Assembly: GCA_028289565.1 (NCBI GenBank)
Contig: JANQPE010000109.1
Span: forward strand, 1 to 34,931
Direction of reading: 5' to 3'
Source: Parerythrobacter sp.
Lineage (GTDB): Bacteria > Pseudomonadota > Alphaproteobacteria > Sphingomonadales > Sphingomonadaceae
DNA length: 34,931 nucleotides
A program made the translations under genes and the position numbers. This document shows, piece after piece, positions 4,114 through 25,831 of the stretch (positions are counted from its first letter, which is position 1; each line of letters opens with the position of its first letter). Under the pieces are notes generated by a model. It was given only the letters and a program-made list of their open reading frames with translations. It was not told the origin of the DNA and did no database searches.

Positions 4114-5367
4114 ATGCATCCGATTGTGACCAGCCTGCTTGGCATAGCGGCGATCCTGCTGATCGCGTTCCTGCTTTCGACGGGCAAGAAGCGTATCAGC
4201 TTACGTATCGTAGGTGCGGCCTTTGCGTTGCAGGCGCTGATGGCGCTGCTCGTGCTGCGTACCCCGTGGGGGGTTACGGCGATCCAGTGGCTGTCGAACG
4301 GCGTCATCGCCCTGCTCGATTTCTCCAAGGTCGGGATCGCTGCGGTGTTCGGCCCGATGGATGCGAACCCGTTCGCCAATACATTCGTGATAGCCGCTCT
4401 TCCGGTCATTATCTTCTTCGCGGCGCTGGTTTCGATCCTGTACCATTGGGGGATCATGCAGCGACTGGTGCGCTGGGTCGGGGGCGCGATCGGCTGGATC
4501 ACCGGGATCAGCAAGGTTGAGGCGCTGGGCAGCGCGGCTAATATCTTCGTCGGCCAGTCGGAAAGCCCGTTGGTCGTCCGCCCCTATCTCGCCGCACTGC
4601 CGCCTGCGCGTCTGTTCACGCTGATGAGCGTTGGCATGGCGGGTGTCGCGGGGACGATCCTGGCCGCCTATGCTTCTTTCATCGGTGAAGACGCGGTGCC
4701 GTTCCTGCTGGCGGCGGCCTTCATGTCCGCGCCGGGCGGTATCCTGATGGCGAAAATCATCATGCCCGACGATGAGGAGGAAGCTGCCAAGCACGACAGG
4801 CTGATGGCCGACGTTGCCGTGTCGGAGACGTTTGAGGAAGGGCACAAACCGGCCAATGTTATTGAGGCTGCCGCGCAGGGCACGCAGACAGGTGTCAAGC
4901 TGGCGGTCGCCGTCGGTGCGATGGTGCTGGTGTTCGTGGCGCTGGTGGCTCTTGCCAATGGATTGCTCGGTGGGATCGGAGGCTGGTTCGGCTATCCCGA
5001 CCTCAGCTTCCAGCAATTACTCGGATATATCTTCGCGCCGGTGATGTATCTGATCGGGATCGGTGACTGGGAGCAGGCCAAGCTGGCAGGCGGATTGTTT
5101 GGCACCAAGATCGTGCTCAACGAATTCGTCGCCTTTATCGATCTCGGCCAGCTTCAGGGCCTGACCGAACGCAGCCGCGCCATCGTGACCTTTGCATTGT
5201 GCGGCTTTGCCAATTTCTCCTCCATCGCCATCCAGATGGCGGTCACGGGCGGACTTGCGCCAAATCAAAGACCCGTGATCGCAAAGCTGGGATTACGCGC
5301 ACTTGCCGCCGGTTCGCTGGCCAACCTGATGAGCGCCGCGCTTGCCGGCCTGTTCCTACCATATTGA
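4114..5367 (+). CDS. nupC: Concentrative nucleoside transporter (CNT/NupC family)
   Basis: A 417-residue inner-membrane permease of the CNT family, which imports nucleosides with H+ or Na+. Expected segments are present: an N-terminal two- or three-helix region, the GxxxNPF-type segment (MDANPFANTFVIAALPVIIFFAAL), the core signature KVEALGSAANIFVGQSESPLVVRPYL, and the C-terminal ALCGFANFSSIAIQ helix that contributes to the substrate site. A hydrophilic loop (about residues 205-255, DDEEEAAKHD and beyond) separates the halves. The 2-oxoglutarate oxygenase begins 8 bp after its stop, so the two are probably one transcript. The symbol is given by family; substrate preference cannot be read from sequence. 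Confidence 0.9.
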   Translation: MHPIVTSLLGIAAILLIAFLLSTGKKRISLRIVGAAFALQALMALLVLRTPWGVTAIQWLSNGVIALLDFSKVGIAAVFGPMDANPFANTFVIAALPVIIFFAALVSILYHWGIMQRLVRWVGGAIGWITGISKVEALGSAANIFVGQSESPLVVRPYLAALPPARLFTLMSVGMAGVAGTILAAYASFIGEDAVPFLLAAAFMSAPGGILMAKIIMPDDEEEAAKHDRLMADVAVSETFEEGHKPANVIEAAAQGTQTGVKLAVAVGAMVLVFVALVALANGLLGGIGGWFGYPDLSFQQLLGYIFAPVMYLIGIGDWEQAKLAGGLFGTKIVLNEFVAFIDLGQLQGLTERSRAIVTFALCGFANFSSIAIQMAVTGGLAPNQRPVIAKLGLRALAAGSLANLMSAALAGLFLPY

Positions 5368-5375
5368 GAAGCCAC

Positions 5376-6305
5376 ATGTCCGATATTGCATCCGTTTCCA
5401 TCGCCCGACCACTGCCCGAAGTTGCCGACGAACTGGGGCGCAGTTTTTCCGAATACGGTTTTGCCGTCATTCGCGATCACGGCATCCCGATCGACCTGAT
5501 CGAACGCGCCGAGAAAATGTCGAAAGCGTTTTTCGACCTGCCGGAGGCAACCAAGCAGGCCTACCATGTCGAGGGCGGTGGTGGTGCGCGCGGCTATACT
5601 CCGTTCGGGACCGAAAAAGCCAAGGACGCCGAGGTCTTCGATCTCAAGGAATTCTGGCATATCGGCAGAAGCCTGTCCGAAGGGCATCCGCTATCCGAAT
5701 ACATGTCGCCTAATGTCTGGCCGGAGGAGATCGAGGGCTTTCGCGAGACTTTCGAGACACTGTTCTCGGAATTCGAGAAAGCCGGGGACCGGATGCTGCG
5801 CGCAATCGCGCTTCATCTCGGCCTGGCCGAAGACTGGTTCGTGGCCACGGTGGAGGATGGCAATTCGGTGATGCGCCTGCTGCATTACCCGCCTTTGCCG
5901 GAAAGCGCGCCCGAAGGGGCCGTGCGTGCCGCGGCACATGGCGATATCAATACGATCACGCTGCTGCTCGGGGCCGAGGAAGCGGGGCTCGAATTGTTGA
6001 GCAAGTCAGGCGAGTGGCTTCCGGTCAGCCCGCCTCCCGGTGCCTTGGCGGTCAATATCGGCGACATGCTCGACCGGTTGACCAATGGCCGCCTCGTCTC
6101 GACCACGCATCGAGTGGTCAATCCGAAAGGCGATGCGGCGCGCCGTTCTCGCTATTCGATGCCGTTCTTCCTTCACTTCCGTCCGGACTTCACGATCGAG
6201 ACGCTCGAATCGTGCATCGACCCCGAATCGCCCGACGATCATCCGGCACCGATTTCGAGCCACGACTTCCTTTTGCAGCGTTTGCGTGAGATCAACCTTG
6301 CCTGA
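5376..6305 (+). CDS. 2-oxoglutarate/Fe(II)-dependent oxygenase, isopenicillin N synthase-like
   Basis: A 309-residue cytoplasmic oxygenase. The N-terminal DIOX_N half (YGFAVIRDHGIP, FFDLPEATK) is followed by the double-stranded beta-helix core with the iron ligands His188 and Asp190 (AAHGDINTITLL) and His245 (STTHRVVNP), and with Arg259 in RYS as the 2-oxoglutarate carboxylate anchor. The start at 5376 is chosen because a longer frame (from 5199) overlaps the transporter and lacks homology. Close coupling to a nucleoside transporter hints at a nucleoside- or nucleobase-derived substrate; thymine 7-hydroxylase belongs to the same superfamily. That link is inference only. Confidence 0.88.
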   Translation: MSDIASVSIARPLPEVADELGRSFSEYGFAVIRDHGIPIDLIERAEKMSKAFFDLPEATKQAYHVEGGGGARGYTPFGTEKAKDAEVFDLKEFWHIGRSLSEGHPLSEYMSPNVWPEEIEGFRETFETLFSEFEKAGDRMLRAIALHLGLAEDWFVATVEDGNSVMRLLHYPPLPESAPEGAVRAAAHGDINTITLLLGAEEAGLELLSKSGEWLPVSPPPGALAVNIGDMLDRLTNGRLVSTTHRVVNPKGDAARRSRYSMPFFLHFRPDFTIETLESCIDPESPDDHPAPISSHDFLLQRLREINLA

Positions 6306-6307
6306 TT

Positions 6308-6331
6308 CTGCCGTCCGGCAGTGGACGGTTT
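6308..6331 (+). terminator. Probable terminator after the oxygenase
   Basis: A GC-rich hairpin CCGTCC / GGACGG (6311-6316 with 6323-6328) is followed by TTT just after the stop codon. An overlapping alternative palindrome, CTGCCG-TC-CGGCAG, lies at 6308-6321. The T-run is short, so the call is moderate. Confidence 0.4.
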
Positions 6332-6550
6332 GTGCATAAGCCCAGAATCTTGCATATTGTTGCAATGCGGCCACATCTGTTTGACGCTACGGAATCCTCA
6401 CTTTTTCGCATTCGGCTCCTGTGAGGACAGTGATTCCCGCTGTTTGTCATCGGCGTGTCATAAAAGCTACTTTCTAGCGTCGTCATACGTGCCTAGTCGG
6501 CCCGCATCCAAGTAACCAAATCTCTTAGCGTCACCCGAGGGAACGATTTC

Positions 6551-9500
6551 ATGAAGCTCAAATATCTCCTGGCTGCCAGCGTCGTAAGCCTTTCCGCCTC
6601 TGCCATGGTTGCCGCACCGGCTGCCGCACAGCAGATTACTTCCGGCATCGAAGGTCAGGTCACCGATGTCGACGGAGCCCCGATTTCGGGCGCCAGCGTG
6701 GTGGTCACCGATACGCGGACCGGGCAGGTGCGCACCCTGAGTGCCGATACGAACGGCACGTTCCGCACCGCTTCTCTCGTTCCGGGCGGGCCGTACACGG
6801 TCACGGTCACGGCGAACGGCTATGAGGGCCAGACCGTCGAAGGCCAGTTCATCACCGTTTCGGGCAATACCGATTACACCTTCCAACTGACCCCGACCGC
6901 AGTCGGCGGTGCGGATACGGTGATCGTCGTCACCGGCGCACGCGCCAATGTGCAGCAACTGGCGGTCGGTCCGGGTCTCGCATTCGACGAAACCACGCTT
7001 GAAGCTTTCCCGAGCCTGAGCCGCGACGTACGCGACATCATTCGTCTCGATCCGCGTGTCAGCCTCGAACGGGCCAACGAAGTCGACCGTATCTCCTGCC
7101 TTGGCGGTAACGATCGCTCGAATACCTTCACTGTCGACGGGATCGTGCAGGCGGACGTCTTCGGTCTCAACGGAACGCCATTTGCCGCTCGTAACTCGCT
7201 TCCGCTTCCCTTCGATGTAATCCGCGAGACTTCGGTCGAATTCGCGCCGTTCGACGTCGAATATTCGGACTTCACCGGTTGCCTCGTGAATGTCGTGACC
7301 AAGTCGGGTCAGAACGAATTCCACGGTTCGGCTTTCTACACCTTCTTCAACGACGATCTCCTGGCTGATACCGTTGTCCGCCCCGACGGCACCGTTTCAC
7401 CGCTTTCTTCGGGTAGCGAGAAGCGCTGGGGTGCCACGCTCGGCGGACCGATCATTCCTGACCGCGTATTCTTCTATGCCGGCTACGAGGAAGTCGATCT
7501 TGGCGATGCCAATGATGAAGGCCCCATTGGTGCCGGCTTCGCCAATGAACTCGAATTTACGACGCAGGCCGATTTCGACCGTTTCGCGCAGATCGCACGC
7601 GATGTTTACGGTCAGGATGTTGGTGGTTATCCGCGCACCCTGCCTGAAACCAGCGTTCGTTATTTTGGCCGGATCGATGCATACATCACTGAAGATCATC
7701 GTCTTGAAGCGACCTATCAGCGTCTGGAAGAGTCGAATGTCGAAAGCGATTTCGGCAATGACAACATCACCGGCCTGAACAGCTTCGAAGACGAAGGCAC
7801 CGTTTCGAATTACTACTCGGTCCGGCTCTATTCGGACTGGAGCGACAAGGTTTCGACCGAGCTGCGCCTCAGCCGTTCGGAAGTAACCGACGTTCAGGGT
7901 CCGGTCGGTTTCGGTGAAGCGCAGTCGGCCAACCCGACCGTTCGCCTCGTGGTCGGTAATATCGGCCCCAATGGCGACACCGGTACTTTTAGCACCGGCC
8001 CGGGTATCTTCCGTTCGGCCAATGCGCTCGAAAGCACAATCAACCAGGCGAAGTTCCAGATCAATATCGACGGTGGTGATCACCAGTTCAAGATCGGTGC
8101 CGAACTCAACGACCTGGAAATTTTCAACCTGTTTGCCATCAACGCAACCGGTTCGCTGTATTTCCAAAATCTCGATGATTTCGAAAACGGGATCCTGACC
8201 ACAGGTTTCTCGTTCTTCCCCGATGCCGACGATATCACCAGCGGCAATTCCTACGCTGCGGACATCAATGCGACGCCGTCGGGCGACATCAACGAAGCGG
8301 CTGCGACTTTCGGTCGTCAGATATATTCGTTCTATGTCCAGGATGATTGGCAGGCGAGCGATCAGCTTTCGATCACAGCCGGTGTCCGTGCCCAGCTTTA
8401 TGCTGGTGACGCACCGCGCCACAACCCGCTGTTCCTCCAGCGCTTCGGCTTCAGCAACGCGAATTCGTTTGGCCGTATCGACCCGGTGATCCTGCCGCGT
8501 CTTTCGGCAACTTACGAGTTCGACAATGCCGGCTTCTTCAGCAATTCACGCCTTACCGGCGGAATTGGCATGTTCACCGGTGGTGATCCGGTTGTGTTCT
8601 TCTCGAACGCGTTTTCGAACAATGGTTTCTCCTCGGCCCTGGGTACTTCGGTATTCTGCGCCAACCGGCCGACCAATGCTCTCGATGCCAATGGCAATTT
8701 CACCGGTTTCCCGCAATGTGTCACCGACTCCGGTTCGGCCAGTGCCGCGCGCGGTGCGGCAGACGTCCAGTCGACCGACCCCGACTTCAAGGTTCCGGTC
8801 GTAACTCGTGCGAATCTCGGCTTCAGCAGCGATTTCGGCACCGAGAACGGCTTCTTCAGCGACTGGCACCTGAATCTCGACTATATCTACAGCCGGTTCA
8901 ACAACCCGCTGAACTTCGTCGATCTGGTTCAGGTTCCGGATATCCGCGTCAATGGCGGTTTCACGACCGACGGTCGCCCAATCTATGCGCCGATCGATCC
9001 GTTGAATGCCGGTTGTAACGCACAGTTGCAGAACCAGGGCGGTACTCCGCCGACCTACACAAATGTCAGTGCAGCTTGCTTCGGCACCGGGCTGGATGAT
9101 TTCATCCAGCTAACCAACGGTCGCGACTATGAAAGCCATATCGCCTCGATCCTGTTGTCGAAGAACTTCCGTAGAGGCCTGTTCACCGAAGGCGGCGGTG
9201 TCAGCATGCGTTTCGGCTATGCTTATACTGATTCCGAAAATTTCCGGGACGTGGGCAGTTCGACCGCAACCTCGAATTTCGACCGTTCGGCCGCTTTTGA
9301 TCGCCAGAATCCGGCCAATTCGACCTCGAACTTCGAAACCCGGCACAACTTCACGGCGGCAGTCAGCTTCCGCGAGGAGTTTTTCGGTGATTACAAGACC
9401 AAGCTGGGCCTGTTCTTCCGCGCCCGCTCTGGCCGTCCGTATAGCCTGACCTTCGATGGAAGCGGTGTCTTCCATGATCGGAGCTCGGGTTCGGATAATG

Positions 9501-21295: not shown

Positions 21296-21371
21296 AGGGG
21301 TGTAGCTCAGTTGGTAGAGCATCGGTCTCCAAAACCGAGGGCCACGGGTTCGAATCCTGTCACCCCTGCCA
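21296..21371 (+). tRNA. tRNA-Trp (anticodon CCA)
   Basis: A complete 76-nt cloverleaf. The acceptor stem AGGGGTG pairs with CACCCCT, the D-arm has AGCTCAGTTGGTAGAGC, and the anticodon stem TCGGT/ACCGA encloses loop CTCCAAA with anticodon CCA. The T-arm contains GGTTCGAATCC, the discriminator is G, and CCA is encoded (21369-21371). A T7 run at 21374-21380 follows. In many alphaproteobacteria secE-nusG-rplK come next; here they start 4.7 kb downstream. Confidence 0.97.
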
Positions 21372-21526: not shown

Positions 21527-21904
21527 CTAGGTGTTGCCTGCCAAGGCCGCGTAAGCGGTGATCAGGGAAAGTGGCAGGAACATGATCCAGGACCTGTGCT
21601 TGGCCCGTGAAAGAAACAGCGCCAGTATTCCAGTCAGGCCGGAGCAGAACGACAAAGCCAGGAGAGTGGCGATGACGGCTTGAGCGGGAGCTACCGCAAT
21701 CACTACGAGAACCGCCGCATGCCCCCACCAGAATAACGTCAGGATGTGCCAACCCACCCATAAGGTCAGCCTGGTATTTTCCAGACTGCCCAGAATGACG
21801 GGGAGATCGGAGCGCTTCAGGAGCGGAACGATAAGGCGCTTCCCGCCAAGGAAGCTGTGCATTGCACCGACTGCGAACAGGAGTCCGGCGGCAAGAATCA
21901 GCAT
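21527..21904 (-). CDS. Small four-helix membrane protein, member 1 of a related pair
   Basis: I do not recognise a named family. The 125-residue protein has about four hydrophobic helices (roughly 3-19, 46-64, 68-95, 102-120) with little soluble sequence. It shares layout and motifs with the protein at 22606-22977: a helix-1 His followed by two glycines and a basic pair (H16...G20 G21 K R; partner H19...G23 G24 R K), PLL shortly after, and a WH pair in helix 2 (W52 H53; partner W49 H50). His residues inside helices 1 and 2 could bind heme or a metal. It is the third gene of a minus-strand operon, 49 bp after the cytochrome b-like gene. Confidence 0.75.
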   Translation of the reverse strand: MLILAAGLLFAVGAMHSFLGGKRLIVPLLKRSDLPVILGSLENTRLTLWVGWHILTLFWWGHAAVLVVIAVAPAQAVIATLLALSFCSGLTGILALFLSRAKHRSWIMFLPLSLITAYAALAGNT

Positions 21905-21953
21905 GACGTATCCTCTCGACTGCGTATTAGTGAAAAGTGTGATTGCACGGCGA

Positions 21954-22595
21954 TCAAAGCTGGTATCCGGGGACCGGATTTTTCAAATAACCGATCCATT
22001 CCGGCGGTAGCCGGATGTCGTAGAACGCACCGAGCAGGATGGCGTTGACCGTGAGCGCGATCAGAACTCCGCTGGTCGAGATCAGCCAGAAAGCGTTTCC
22101 CGCCATATTCGGAAGCTGACGCTGCAGAAGATGCAGGCGTACCGCGCATCCCAGATGTACGAACAGCGCGGAGATACCCAGAAAATAATATGGAGCGAAG
22201 TACCAGCGAAAGGGAGACGCGCTCATGACCGATGCGGGCCAGAAAAAGGTGGTGTCCAGCCCACCAACCCAGCGCGTTACTCCCATCGCGACCAGATGCT
22301 GCAGGATGAAGATCAGAAAAATGAGACCGGAAAGGGTCTGCCGGCGCGACCATTTTTCGCCCATCTTCCGAAGAAAGTTATTGGTGGCCAGGCCGAATCC
22401 GATTCCCGCCTGCACCACGAATGATGCCAGCAGCAAGGGCTCGACAATCGGGTTGCGGTAGAAATAGCGCAGCACGTTCTGGGTCGCGGCATAGGCATCG
22501 ATGCCCCAAAGGCCCGACAAATGGGTCGCCATGTGAATCGCCACAAAGGCAGTCAGGAATATCCCGTTGATGCGGTGAAAGGCCTTCTTGTTCAT
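21954..22595 (-). CDS. Five-helix membrane protein resembling a cytochrome b subunit
   Basis: A 213-residue protein with five predicted helices (about 7-30, 50-71, 88-106, 135-157, 168-190). The first begins FHRINGIFLTAFVAIHMATH, reminiscent of succinate dehydrogenase/fumarate reductase membrane anchors. Intramembrane histidines are H7, H21, H25, H100 (LQH) and H147/H155 (FVHLGCAVRLH), which would allow one or two b-type hemes. No flavoprotein or iron-sulfur partner is nearby, so it is not part of a normal Sdh operon. The resemblance is in topology and motif only. It starts 10 bp after the upstream gene at 22606, so cotranscription is likely. Confidence 0.75.
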   Translation of the reverse strand: MNKKAFHRINGIFLTAFVAIHMATHLSGLWGIDAYAATQNVLRYFYRNPIVEPLLLASFVVQAGIGFGLATNNFLRKMGEKWSRRQTLSGLIFLIFILQHLVAMGVTRWVGGLDTTFFWPASVMSASPFRWYFAPYYFLGISALFVHLGCAVRLHLLQRQLPNMAGNAFWLISTSGVLIALTVNAILLGAFYDIRLPPEWIGYLKNPVPGYQL

Positions 22596-22605
22596 CGGCC
22601 CGGTT

Positions 22606-22977
22606 TCATGCTTGAAGCGCGGCGAGAGCGCTGAGGCCCCCGATCACAGCAAAGAGCGAGGTCGAAGGGAAACGCCACGGCTGTATTTTCGCCAGCCACG
22701 CTACACCGGCGCTCAGGATCGATAGTGTGAAGCTCAACGATCCCAGGAAGATCAGTGACGGGAGATGGGGGTGGCGGGCAAGCCAGGAAAAGCCTGCAAC
22801 GTAAAAAACCAGCAGAACTGTTGTGACATGCCAGCAGTAATAGTTCAGCCATTTCGATGCCAGGGGCATGGTTTGGTCGGCAAGCAGCGGGCGTGCCGCT
22901 TTCCTGCCGCCAACGAATGCATGGACGCAAAATGTCAGGAGTGATGTTGCGGCAGCCAGCCACGTGAATGTGGTCAT
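22606..22977 (-). CDS. Small four-helix membrane protein, member 2 of a related pair
   Basis: A 123-residue protein with four predicted helices and no recognised domain. It is related to the protein at 21527-21904 by length, topology and motifs: VHAFVGGRK in helix 1 (H19), PLL following, WH in helix 2 (W49 H50), and similar spacing after that. It is the first gene of the three-gene minus-strand operon and faces the TetR gene across 49 bp that contain a clean palindromic operator. By position it is the most likely regulated target. The second and third helices are rich in Leu, Ser and aromatic residues, and the short loops have few charges. Confidence 0.75.
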   Translation of the reverse strand: MTTFTWLAAATSLLTFCVHAFVGGRKAARPLLADQTMPLASKWLNYYCWHVTTVLLVFYVAGFSWLARHPHLPSLIFLGSLSFTLSILSAGVAWLAKIQPWRFPSTSLFAVIGGLSALAALQA

Positions 22978-22992
22978 ATGACGAAGACTCTT

Positions 22993-23014
22993 TACTAGAA
23001 TTTATTTTCTAGTA
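22993..23014. promoter_or_regulatory. TetR-type operator, 8-bp inverted repeat
   Basis: TACTAGAA (22993-23000) and TTCTAGTA (23007-23014) form a perfect 8-bp inverted repeat around TTTATT, 22 bp in all. It sits in the middle of the 49-bp region between the tetR start (23027) and the divergent membrane-protein start (22977). Size, symmetry and placement fit a TetR-family dimer site that would control both directions and tetR itself. Confidence 0.75.
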
Positions 23015-23026
23015 TATCTTCATGAT

Positions 23027-23605
23027 ATGGGACGAACGTCAACCTTTTCCGACGAAAAAATTTTCTCGGCAGTCAGCTCCCAGATTGCTGAAGGGAACGA
23101 ATTCAGAATTCAGGCTCTCGCGCATGAGGCGGGGATTTCGGTTGGATCACTCTATCATCGATACGGATCGCGCGAGGAGCTTCTGGCACTGGCCTGGCTA
23201 GATGCCGTGCAAGCATTTCAACATCGGTTTTTGACTGTGCTGCGGGAAGGGGGAGCAGCCGCAGGAGAACGGGCGGCGTTGGAAACTCCCCGCTTTTGCA
23301 GGATGCAGCGTGACCGGGCGGTCATCTTATGCGTGGGGCGCCGCGAAGCATTGATGAGCGACAAGGCGCCACCCGAAATCCTGCGCAATGTCGAAGCGCT
23401 GAATGCAGACACGCACTCGGCATTGATGACATTCGCGAAACAGGAAAACTTCTCGCTGCAGGCCTGCCTGCACGGGATCGTGGCTTTCCCGCTTGCATCC
23501 GTGCGGCTGTATTTGCCGCGCCACCCCGTCCCGAGGTCGACCGACGCTTTCATCCGTGCCGCCTATCGATCGGCGATCGGGGTTTGCTCACGGGAGGCAG
23601 GATGA
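23027..23605 (+). CDS. TetR/AcrR family transcriptional regulator
   Basis: A 192-residue regulator with an N-terminal TetR-type helix-turn-helix (about residues 10-56): IQALAHEAGISVGSLYHRYGSREELLALAW, where GxSxGxxYHxxxSxEEL is the family pattern. The C-terminal ligand/dimer domain is divergent and gives no ligand. The ATG at 23027 has no good Shine-Dalgarno sequence and lies 12 bp from the operator, so the leader must be very short, possibly nearly leaderless. The gene is autoregulated and controls the divergent operon, judging from the palindrome. Its stop codon overlaps the start of the following membrane-protein gene (ATGA). Confidence 0.88.
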   Translation: MGRTSTFSDEKIFSAVSSQIAEGNEFRIQALAHEAGISVGSLYHRYGSREELLALAWLDAVQAFQHRFLTVLREGGAAAGERAALETPRFCRMQRDRAVILCVGRREALMSDKAPPEILRNVEALNADTHSALMTFAKQENFSLQACLHGIVAFPLASVRLYLPRHPVPRSTDAFIRAAYRSAIGVCSREAG

Positions 23606-23982
23606 TGGTCGACATGCCGACCGGCAAGCTACCGGGAACGATCCGGCGGATAATCATCATCGTGCTGGCTGGCCTGTTGATCTTGTATCATGGCTACACC
23701 ATCCACGAACTGCATGGCAGTTCGATCGCTTTTACCGGCTTCGATCATGTTCAGGTCAGTTTGAAGTGCATTATCATTGCAAGCCTGGCACTCGTTATCG
23801 CCAATATACGCCTGGGCTTGTGGGGCATGTGGTTCGGTATTCTCGCTCTGATCGGCACTCAGTATTGGGCCCATTTCGGGTTTCAGACGGCTGAATTTAC
23901 CGAGGGGAGGTCGCTCTTTTCATATCTGCGTGGCTTTATCGTTCCGGTCGTCGTCACCATCGTGTTTCCGGATAGGGATTAG
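23602..23982 (+). CDS. Small membrane protein translationally coupled to tetR
   Basis: A 126-residue protein with four predicted helices (about 14-30, 52-69, 72-92, 108-122). It has several histidines around helix 1 (H30, H35, H38), FDHV before helix 2 and YWAHFGF ending helix 3. No family is recognised. The start at 23602 overlaps the tetR stop (ATGA) and follows a GGGAGG ribosome binding site (23592-23597); a second ATG follows at 23605. A longer frame from 23329 is a shadow of tetR and is rejected. Coupling to the regulator suggests the same physiological task as the divergent membrane proteins, perhaps sensing or handling of a membrane-active ligand. Confidence 0.75.
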   Translation: MMVDMPTGKLPGTIRRIIIIVLAGLLILYHGYTIHELHGSSIAFTGFDHVQVSLKCIIIASLALVIANIRLGLWGMWFGILALIGTQYWAHFGFQTAEFTEGRSLFSYLRGFIVPVVVTIVFPDRD

Positions 23983-24313: not shown

Positions 24314-25831
24314 TCAGTATTCGTTCGGCTCTTCCGGCGTATCGGCCGTGTGGGTTGGTCCGGCGGTTTTATCGCCTTGCGCCAGCTTGAACACGACGCC
24401 TGACAGGAGCATCAGCGCCAGGATGTTCGGCAACGCCATCGCAGCGTTGGCAATATCGCCCAGGCGCCACACCAGCGTAAGATCCTGGAAGCTGCCGATG
24501 AAAATGGCGACGCACCAAATGATGCGCCACACCAGATGGAGCACCTTTTCGCCCCCACGGGTGGAGCCTGGAATACGATCGTAAAGAAACGTAATCGCCC
24601 GCTCGCCATAGTAACTCCAGGTCAACAGCGTCGTGAACACGAACAGGATTAGCGCTGTCGAAGCGATCAGCGTGCCCACTGGGACGTTGAATACCTGGAC
24701 CGGGAAGGCCGCCGCGAAGGCGCCGCTGGTCATCGCAAAACCTTCCAGATCGGACTGCCAGGCGTGCTGGACGGCTTGTCCGCCGCCAGTGAAATCGCCC
24801 TGTACCGTCAGGATCACCAATGCGGTCATTGTGCAGATCACAATAGTGTCGATGAAAGTCCCCATCATGGCCATGCGGCCTTGCTGTTGCGGATCATCCG
24901 TTTGTGCCACGGCGTGCGCCATGGCCGTGGATCCTTGCCCTGCCTCGTTGGAGAACAATCCGCGTGCCACCCCTGCCCGGATCGCAAAGATGATCGCCGC
25001 GCCCAGGAAGCCGCCGGAGGCGCTTTGATAATTGAACGCGCCGTGGAAGATGCGGCCAAAGGTCTCCGGAATGTCCTGGATATTCAGGATCAATGCGATG
25101 ATCGCCATGATCAAATAGGCCGCCGCCATGAAGGGAACGATCTTCTCGGCCACGCTGCCGATCGACTTGATCCCGCCGATAATGACGACGAACACTGCCA
25201 CTGCCACAATGATTCCGGCGATCCATTCTTCGATCCCGAACAGTTCGTTGAAACTGTCTGCAACCGCATTGGCCTGAATCGAGTTGCCGGTAACCAGCGC
25301 CGAGAACAGCGTGCCCAGACAGAACAGGATCGCGAGCCAGGTCCATTTTTTGCCAAGCCCCATCATGATGTAACTCATCGGGCCGCCACGATAGACGCCA
25401 TCGCTTGTCTTCTCGCGATAACGGATCGCAAGACTGCCTTCTGCGAAAGCCAGCGACAGACAGACCAATGCAGTCAACCACATCCAGAAGATCGCTCCTG
25501 GCCCGCCAAGTGCGATCGCGGTAGCCACGCCGGCAAGGTTGCCGGTGCCGACCTGCCCGGAAAGCGCGGTCGACAGCGCTGCGAATGGTGAGATTTCGCC
25601 ATCGCCGCTTCCCTTACGGCTGCGAAACAGGCCTTTGAAAGCTTCGGGCAGTTTGAATATCGGATAGAGTTTCAGCCCGAACAGCATGAAAAGGCCGGCG
25701 CCAAAGAATATGATCACCATCGGAGGGAAGGGAATGACCTCCTGGCCGTCCCAGATACCGCCCCAGATGAAATCGGATATGTTGGTAATCCGGTCGATCA
25801 GGCTGACCGATCCTGTGTCGCTAGCGGCCAT
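24314..25831 (-). CDS. AGCS family amino-acid:sodium (alanine/glycine) symporter
   Basis: A 505-residue permease of the alanine-or-glycine:cation symporter family, with about ten to eleven helices. Family signatures are FAALSTALSGQVGTGNLAGVATAIALGGPGAIFWMW (residues about 83-118), the VYRGGPMSYIMMGLG motif, AGVARGLFSNEAGQGSTAMAHA and, late, FVFTTLLTWSYYGERA. It probably imports alanine or glycine with Na+, although some members carry other amino acids. It has an acidic, Pro/Thr-rich C-terminus (HTADTPEEPNEY). It is a single-gene unit on the minus strand within the stretch separating tRNA-Trp from secE, divergent from secE. Confidence 0.92.
   Translation of the reverse strand: MAASDTGSVSLIDRITNISDFIWGGIWDGQEVIPFPPMVIIFFGAGLFMLFGLKLYPIFKLPEAFKGLFRSRKGSGDGEISPFAALSTALSGQVGTGNLAGVATAIALGGPGAIFWMWLTALVCLSLAFAEGSLAIRYREKTSDGVYRGGPMSYIMMGLGKKWTWLAILFCLGTLFSALVTGNSIQANAVADSFNELFGIEEWIAGIIVAVAVFVVIIGGIKSIGSVAEKIVPFMAAAYLIMAIIALILNIQDIPETFGRIFHGAFNYQSASGGFLGAAIIFAIRAGVARGLFSNEAGQGSTAMAHAVAQTDDPQQQGRMAMMGTFIDTIVICTMTALVILTVQGDFTGGGQAVQHAWQSDLEGFAMTSGAFAAAFPVQVFNVPVGTLIASTALILFVFTTLLTWSYYGERAITFLYDRIPGSTRGGEKVLHLVWRIIWCVAIFIGSFQDLTLVWRLGDIANAAMALPNILALMLLSGVVFKLAQGDKTAGPTHTADTPEEPNEY

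Follow-up and report, generated by a model that had tools for sequence, protein, structure and literature searches.

The locus examined here lies in a 34,931-nucleotide stretch of Parerythrobacter sp. DNA, called the window throughout, and it consists of five genes and a candidate operator (Table 1). Genes A, B, and C are oriented divergently from tetR, with intergenic gaps of 10 bp between A and B and 49 bp between B and C, and tetR overlaps gene D through the sequence ATGA. The ORFs, protein sizes, gaps, and overlap listed in the initial annotation were all recovered at the same positions. The GC content of the locus is 56%, compared with 61% in the remainder of the window. The initial annotation knew of no described system with this content; the family libraries give the operon no name, and a literature search for this combination of genes returned nothing relevant.

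Table 1. Features of the locus and its flanks, numbered from the first nucleotide of the window
Feature	Position	Strand	Description	Basis
Gene A	22606..22977	-	123 aa four-helix membrane protein	ORF; 48-member family alignment
Gene B	21954..22595	-	213 aa, five-helix, putative remote SdhC/b558-type cytochrome b	TIGR02046 and 6lum profile matches
Gene C	21527..21904	-	125 aa, distant paralog of A	ORF, alignment, AlphaFold model
TetR operator candidate	22993..23014		Between gene A and tetR	Perfect inverted repeat, conserved core
tetR	23027..23605	+	192 aa, putative local repressor of the module	PF00440
Gene D	23602..23982	+	126 aa membrane protein, optional accessory	ORF
tRNA-Trp	21296-21371		Flanks the locus on one side
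Sodium:alanine-type symporter gene	24314-25831		Flanks the locus on the other side	Named from its own sequence

A conserved palindrome between tetR and gene A

The tetR product matches the N-terminal helix–turn–helix model PF00440 with 28 bits against a cut-off of 24 (E = 1.9e-6), and its C-terminal half has no match to a named subfamily. A single operator had been assumed in the initial annotation, and such a site does exist: the 49-bp gap between tetR and gene A contains TACTAGAA-TTTATT-TTCTAGTA, whose two 8-bp arms form a perfect palindrome around a 6-bp spacer. Of 24 orthologous TetR/A gaps, 19 preserve the core of this site, TAGAA-N6-TTCTA, and eight have all 16 arm bases. A base-shuffled control for the core gave a mean of 0.006 and a maximum of 2 of 24, where the 24 gap sequences span several families and shuffling leaves their relatedness in place. 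When up to three mismatches are allowed, the full-length TACTAGAA-N6-TTCTAGTA site occurs once in the assembly from which the window comes (incomplete, 2.2 Mb in 148 contigs), and the bare core is found at one further place. Because the palindrome is conserved and, at full length, unique in the assembly, it provides strong evidence for a local switch in which TetR presumably binds this site and represses the genes beside it.

Divergent operons under TetR control are commonplace. The locus shares with other TetR-family local repressor systems the PF00440 helix–turn–helix and a palindromic operator between divergent genes, but its targets include neither a pump nor a catabolic enzyme. The gap between A and tetR contains no match to the sigma-70 promoter consensus, a result that is uninformative in bacteria of this class. 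The idea that TetR acts generally as a cysteine-based redox switch was rejected, because the conserved residue Cys91 is Ser in the nearest relatives (L049, L050, and L096).

Genes A and C encode a pair of small histidine-containing membrane proteins

The initial annotation had placed histidines in helices 1 and 2 of the two smaller proteins. This is borne out, with His19 and His50 of A and His16 and His53 of C located within or at hydrophobic segments 1 and 2, and the residues prove to be invariant in the joint alignment. In the 48-member alignment of the A family, His19 is kept in at least 90% of members and the pair Trp49–His50 is invariant, His50 being part of the conserved motif SKWLNYYxWH. 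Four residues are invariant across 57 A and C sequences (His16, Gly20, Trp52, and His53 in C numbering), and the alignment of C alone adds His103, where the last helix begins, and Trp106. By this alignment A and C are distant paralogs of each other, a relationship that the initial annotation had missed.

Searches of A, C, and D against Pfam and NCBIfam gave no usable match, and a sequence search of the PDB with A and C gave no convincing one. An AlphaFold model of C built from 57 sequences (pLDDT 96, pTM 0.83) contains four helices, of which the first three are long and the last is shorter. In this model His16 and His53 are carried by helices 2-29 and 41-71 at approximately equal distances from the turn between helices 1 and 2, and from these helix boundaries we infer that the two side chains face each other. 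A fold search with the model yielded a best Foldseek E of 1.9 and a best VIA Z of 8.3, the latter to a designed bundle. Receptors and generic helix bundles were matched only weakly, and a Z of 5.6 to Escherichia coli SdhC was taken as background. A parallel is offered by cytochrome b561, including the superoxide oxidase CybB (PF01292), which like A and C is a small four-helix membrane protein with intramembrane histidines. However, neither A nor C matches PF01292, and the locus has two paralogs where cytochrome b561 is one protein.

The invariant histidines could also be taken as ligands of a metal ion rather than of heme, which would make A and C a small metal sensor, chaperone, or channel. 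His103 of C would suit such a site, as would the histidines of helices 1 and 2, but the proteins have no Cys- or Met-rich motifs, no known metal gene adjoins the module in the loci read, and gene B is of the cytochrome type. We therefore regard metal binding as very improbable and retain heme b as the preferred ligand. The A/C family reaches several phyla and has no named family in the libraries searched; the A/C pair is the part of the locus most likely to prove new.

Gene B resembles a respiratory cytochrome b that has lost a heme ligand

The protein encoded by gene B has five hydrophobic segments and histidines at positions 7, 21, 25, 100, 147, and 155. It matches TIGR02046, the SdhC b558 family, with E = 6.3e-6 and 25.9 bits against a curated cut-off of 96 bits, and this model is also matched by nine of the 16 members of the B family (best E = 2.5e-11). 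The scores of B for TIGR02046 and for PF01127 are both far below the curated cut-offs. In addition, a profile of the B family finds the SdhC subunit of PDB entry 6lum over helices 1–3 (E = 0.0013). Judged by these matches, B is a remote member of the SdhC/b558-type cytochrome b group. An AlphaFold model of B (pLDDT 51, with two sequences in the alignment) was too poor for a fold search.

Invariant in the B family are His21, His25, His100, His147, and Gln62, the last of which is opposite the helix-2 His of SdhC in the 6lum alignment. In Bacillus subtilis SdhC and Wolinella succinogenes FrdC, the histidines of helices 1 and 3 bind one heme and those of helices 2 and 4 bind the other. This four-His set is incomplete in B: with His retained in helices 1, 3, and 4, one heme site would be intact and the other reduced to half. 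Beyond helices 1–3 of the 6lum alignment, this comparison is with the B. subtilis and W. succinogenes proteins; a search of 200 genomes of the phylum yielded no true TIGR02046 members (E of 1e-20 or better).

The initial annotation likened this protein to a cytochrome b anchor. The relationship stands, on the evidence of TIGR02046 and the invariant histidines, but B falls short of a complete anchor, since an invariant Gln takes the place of one expected heme ligand. Like the diheme b558 proteins SdhC and FrdC (TIGR02046, PF01127 superfamily), B has five helices, comparably spaced histidines in helices 1, 3, and 4, and a sequence-profile match over residues 2-149. It differs from them in Gln62, in its low score, and in its genetic setting. 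As the initial annotation had remarked, the locus holds no flavoprotein or Fe–S partner gene, and none was seen near B in L096 or L128; B instead accompanies A and C under TetR or stands alone beside an Rrf2-type gene.

Conservation of the gene neighborhood

The gene A alignment was scanned against genome contigs and the ORFs of the resulting loci were then searched with profiles. This gave 54 loci, two of which (L086 and L094) come from the same genomes as L033 and L034. An orthologous TetR gene is divergent from A in 22 of the 54, all assigned to the alphaproteobacteria by record title or taxonomy; C directly adjoins A in 20; and the order TetR|A-C occurs in 16. The A and C profiles behind these counts were iterated and cross-trained, with labels assigned by the higher score and by position, and the labels agree with separately built alignments and profiles. 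The exact order TetR|A-B-C was found in two other genomes, an uncultured member of the Rhodobacteraceae (L096) and an alphaproteobacterium (L128), whose B proteins are 54% and 57% identical to that of the window. In Nitratireductor soli (L100), a shortened B follows TetR|A. Cultured carriers of the module include Parasphingopyxis lamellibrachiae and Maricaulis maris, in the A-C version. Three Thalassotalea loci have the order C-A, and most other gammaproteobacterial loci have A alone. Gene A is rare: of 385 genomes sampled from the class, 12 match its profile, and the strong matches among these are restricted to the window's own genome and G834.

These results show that the gene cluster recurs across marine alphaproteobacteria and that the conserved module consists of TetR, A, and C; B is an optional member, and linkage of D is occasional. 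A neighborhood search showing the genes apart would have counted against the initial annotation, and this outcome was not observed. Because A and C occur without B at most loci, and A occurs alone at most gammaproteobacterial ones, neither of the two can require B. The survey also bears on the idea that the five genes are unrelated small membrane genes that are neighbors by chance. This idea gains something from the optional status of B and from the failure of D to be conserved with the rest. It is nevertheless refuted for TetR, A, B, and C, because TetR and its operator recur with A and C in many genera and TetR|A-B-C recurs in L096 and L128. As an account of all five genes we consider it extremely improbable; D alone may be a chance neighbor.

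Two further arrangements were observed. In Zongyanglinia (L049, 5453-5860), A is followed by a gene for a 135-aa four-helix protein that has a sub-threshold match to DoxX_2 and is neither B nor C. On plasmid pP97_b of Phaeobacter porticola (L104, 2980-4411), a distant A-like gene, a different TetR-type gene, and a gene for a 170-aa hypothetical protein form one close run.

Evidence for horizontal transfer

In a tree of TetR sequences, the window groups with Rhodobacteraceae (L096, L049, and L050) with support of 100/99 and is apart from the other sphingomonad copies (L086 and L094). The gene A tree agrees (support 95/80). These placements, together with the lower GC content of the locus, imply that it was acquired by horizontal transfer. 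No evidence of an integrase was found. The tRNA-Trp gene was considered as an integration site and rejected; site-specific insertion is unsupported because the 3' end of the tRNA is not repeated within the window.

Inspection by eye revealed attC-like palindromes (TAACAA...GTTA) flanking A in some gammaproteobacterial and other genomes (L069, 4903-5477; L071, L072, L063, and L080), suggesting that some copies of gene A may have spread as integron gene cassettes.

Such mobility would suit the main rival to a redox function, namely, inducible resistance to a membrane-active compound. TetR would then sense a lipophilic toxin, and A, B, C, and D would alter the membrane or would expel or sequester the compound without redox chemistry. 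A local TetR with one operator and membrane proteins only is the usual layout of a drug- or solvent-response operon, and gene A is rare and patchy, moves between taxa, and in some gammaproteobacteria resembles an integron cassette. However, no member of the locus matches a transporter family, and four-helix proteins of 123-125 aa with invariant intramembrane histidines, encoded beside a cytochrome-type B, are unlike pumps. We judge resistance of this kind unlikely, and a redox role remains the preferred reading.

Redox context of relatives

Standalone relatives of B in the window's family (L002-L015) have an apparent Rrf2-type regulator with a three-Cys motif nearby in nine of 14 cases, a count that leaves out a spurious long ORF (L006) from the Cys-motif search. 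Six of the nine Rrf2-type proteins were tested and all scored above the Rrf2 superfamily cut-off. Rrf2 proteins of this kind sense Fe–S status, iron, or NO. The pairing of standalone B relatives with Rrf2 represents a second, different regulation of this cytochrome-like family.

Two other neighborhoods involve redox-related genes, although the first is seen with two distant TetR relatives and the second in one genome. TetR relatives directly adjoin NnrU-family genes in G308 and G151 (L111, 3692-5110, and L112, 4536-5902), and in Brevundimonas sp. AAP58 gene A lies 87 bp after a cytochrome b561 gene. The NnrU and b561 neighbors are each a weak clue, and together they point to membrane redox chemistry.

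In Ensifer meliloti, nnrU is a target of NnrR (PMC6710368), and Z-ISO, a member of the NnrU domain family, is a heme-b isomerase (PMC9505123). By analogy, the locus could encode a membrane-bound enzyme for a lipid-like substrate, with heme in a structural or catalytic role. The NnrU/Z-ISO family (PF07298) is likewise a family of His-containing membrane proteins, and its members adjoin relatives of the locus TetR. Yet A, B, and C have no NnrU match in Pfam, D has no sequence match to NnrU either, and the link consists of the neighborhood of distant regulators only. We consider an enzyme of this kind quite improbable compared with the redox module that we prefer.

A possible membrane redox module

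Because B is a stripped-down relative of a respiratory cytochrome b anchor, the locus most likely encodes an undescribed membrane redox device that can be induced. More specifically, we tentatively favor, at not quite an even chance, a TetR-derepressed, heme-b, quinone-linked membrane redox module that is used under stress. The repression, inducer, heme, substrate, complex formation, electron transfer, and physiological role that we infer can be arranged as follows. A TetR dimer on the palindrome would keep the A-B-C operon and tetR-D alike from being transcribed until it is released by a small ligand that is lipophilic or reactive. Together A and C would make a paired four-helix complex, and heme b or a metal would be bound there by the two invariant histidines of helices 1 and 2, lying at the same membrane depth. 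Where B is present, it would contribute an extra heme through the histidines of helices 1 and 3 and would exchange electrons with the quinone pool in one direction or the other. The module would then probably serve to clear the membrane of a reactive species, for example superoxide, nitric oxide, lipid radicals, or an electrophilic quinone, in a mode resembling the cytochrome b561-type superoxide oxidase and not a dehydrogenase anchor.

A bolder version, which is doubtful as a whole, is that A and C constitute a new minimal four-helix heme-b family acting as an obligate pair, which has recruited a degenerate SdhC-type B to make a TetR-controlled, quinone-linked stress oxidoreductase without counterpart among described systems.

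The locus is of interest as a conserved, transferable operon of uncharacterized membrane proteins whose defined operator and repressor should make the inducer findable by a reporter screen. The A/C family is without a family model or a solved structure. B provides a natural example of an SdhC-like cytochrome that is detached from its dehydrogenase and has one heme ligand substituted.

Gene D

The initial annotation treated all five genes as a unit. This view survives for TetR, A, and C, which are kept together in other genomes, and in part for the optional B, but not for D, which is adjacent to tetR in the window only. D is linked with C and A in two Pseudoalteromonas records (L032 and L065) in the order C-A-D, and elsewhere it occurs without linkage to A or C. 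It is a loose accessory at most. In L039, L041, and L042 (∼5000-6600), relatives of D in the same family, unlinked to A or C, adjoin a gene for a multi-helix membrane protein of 356-380 aa.
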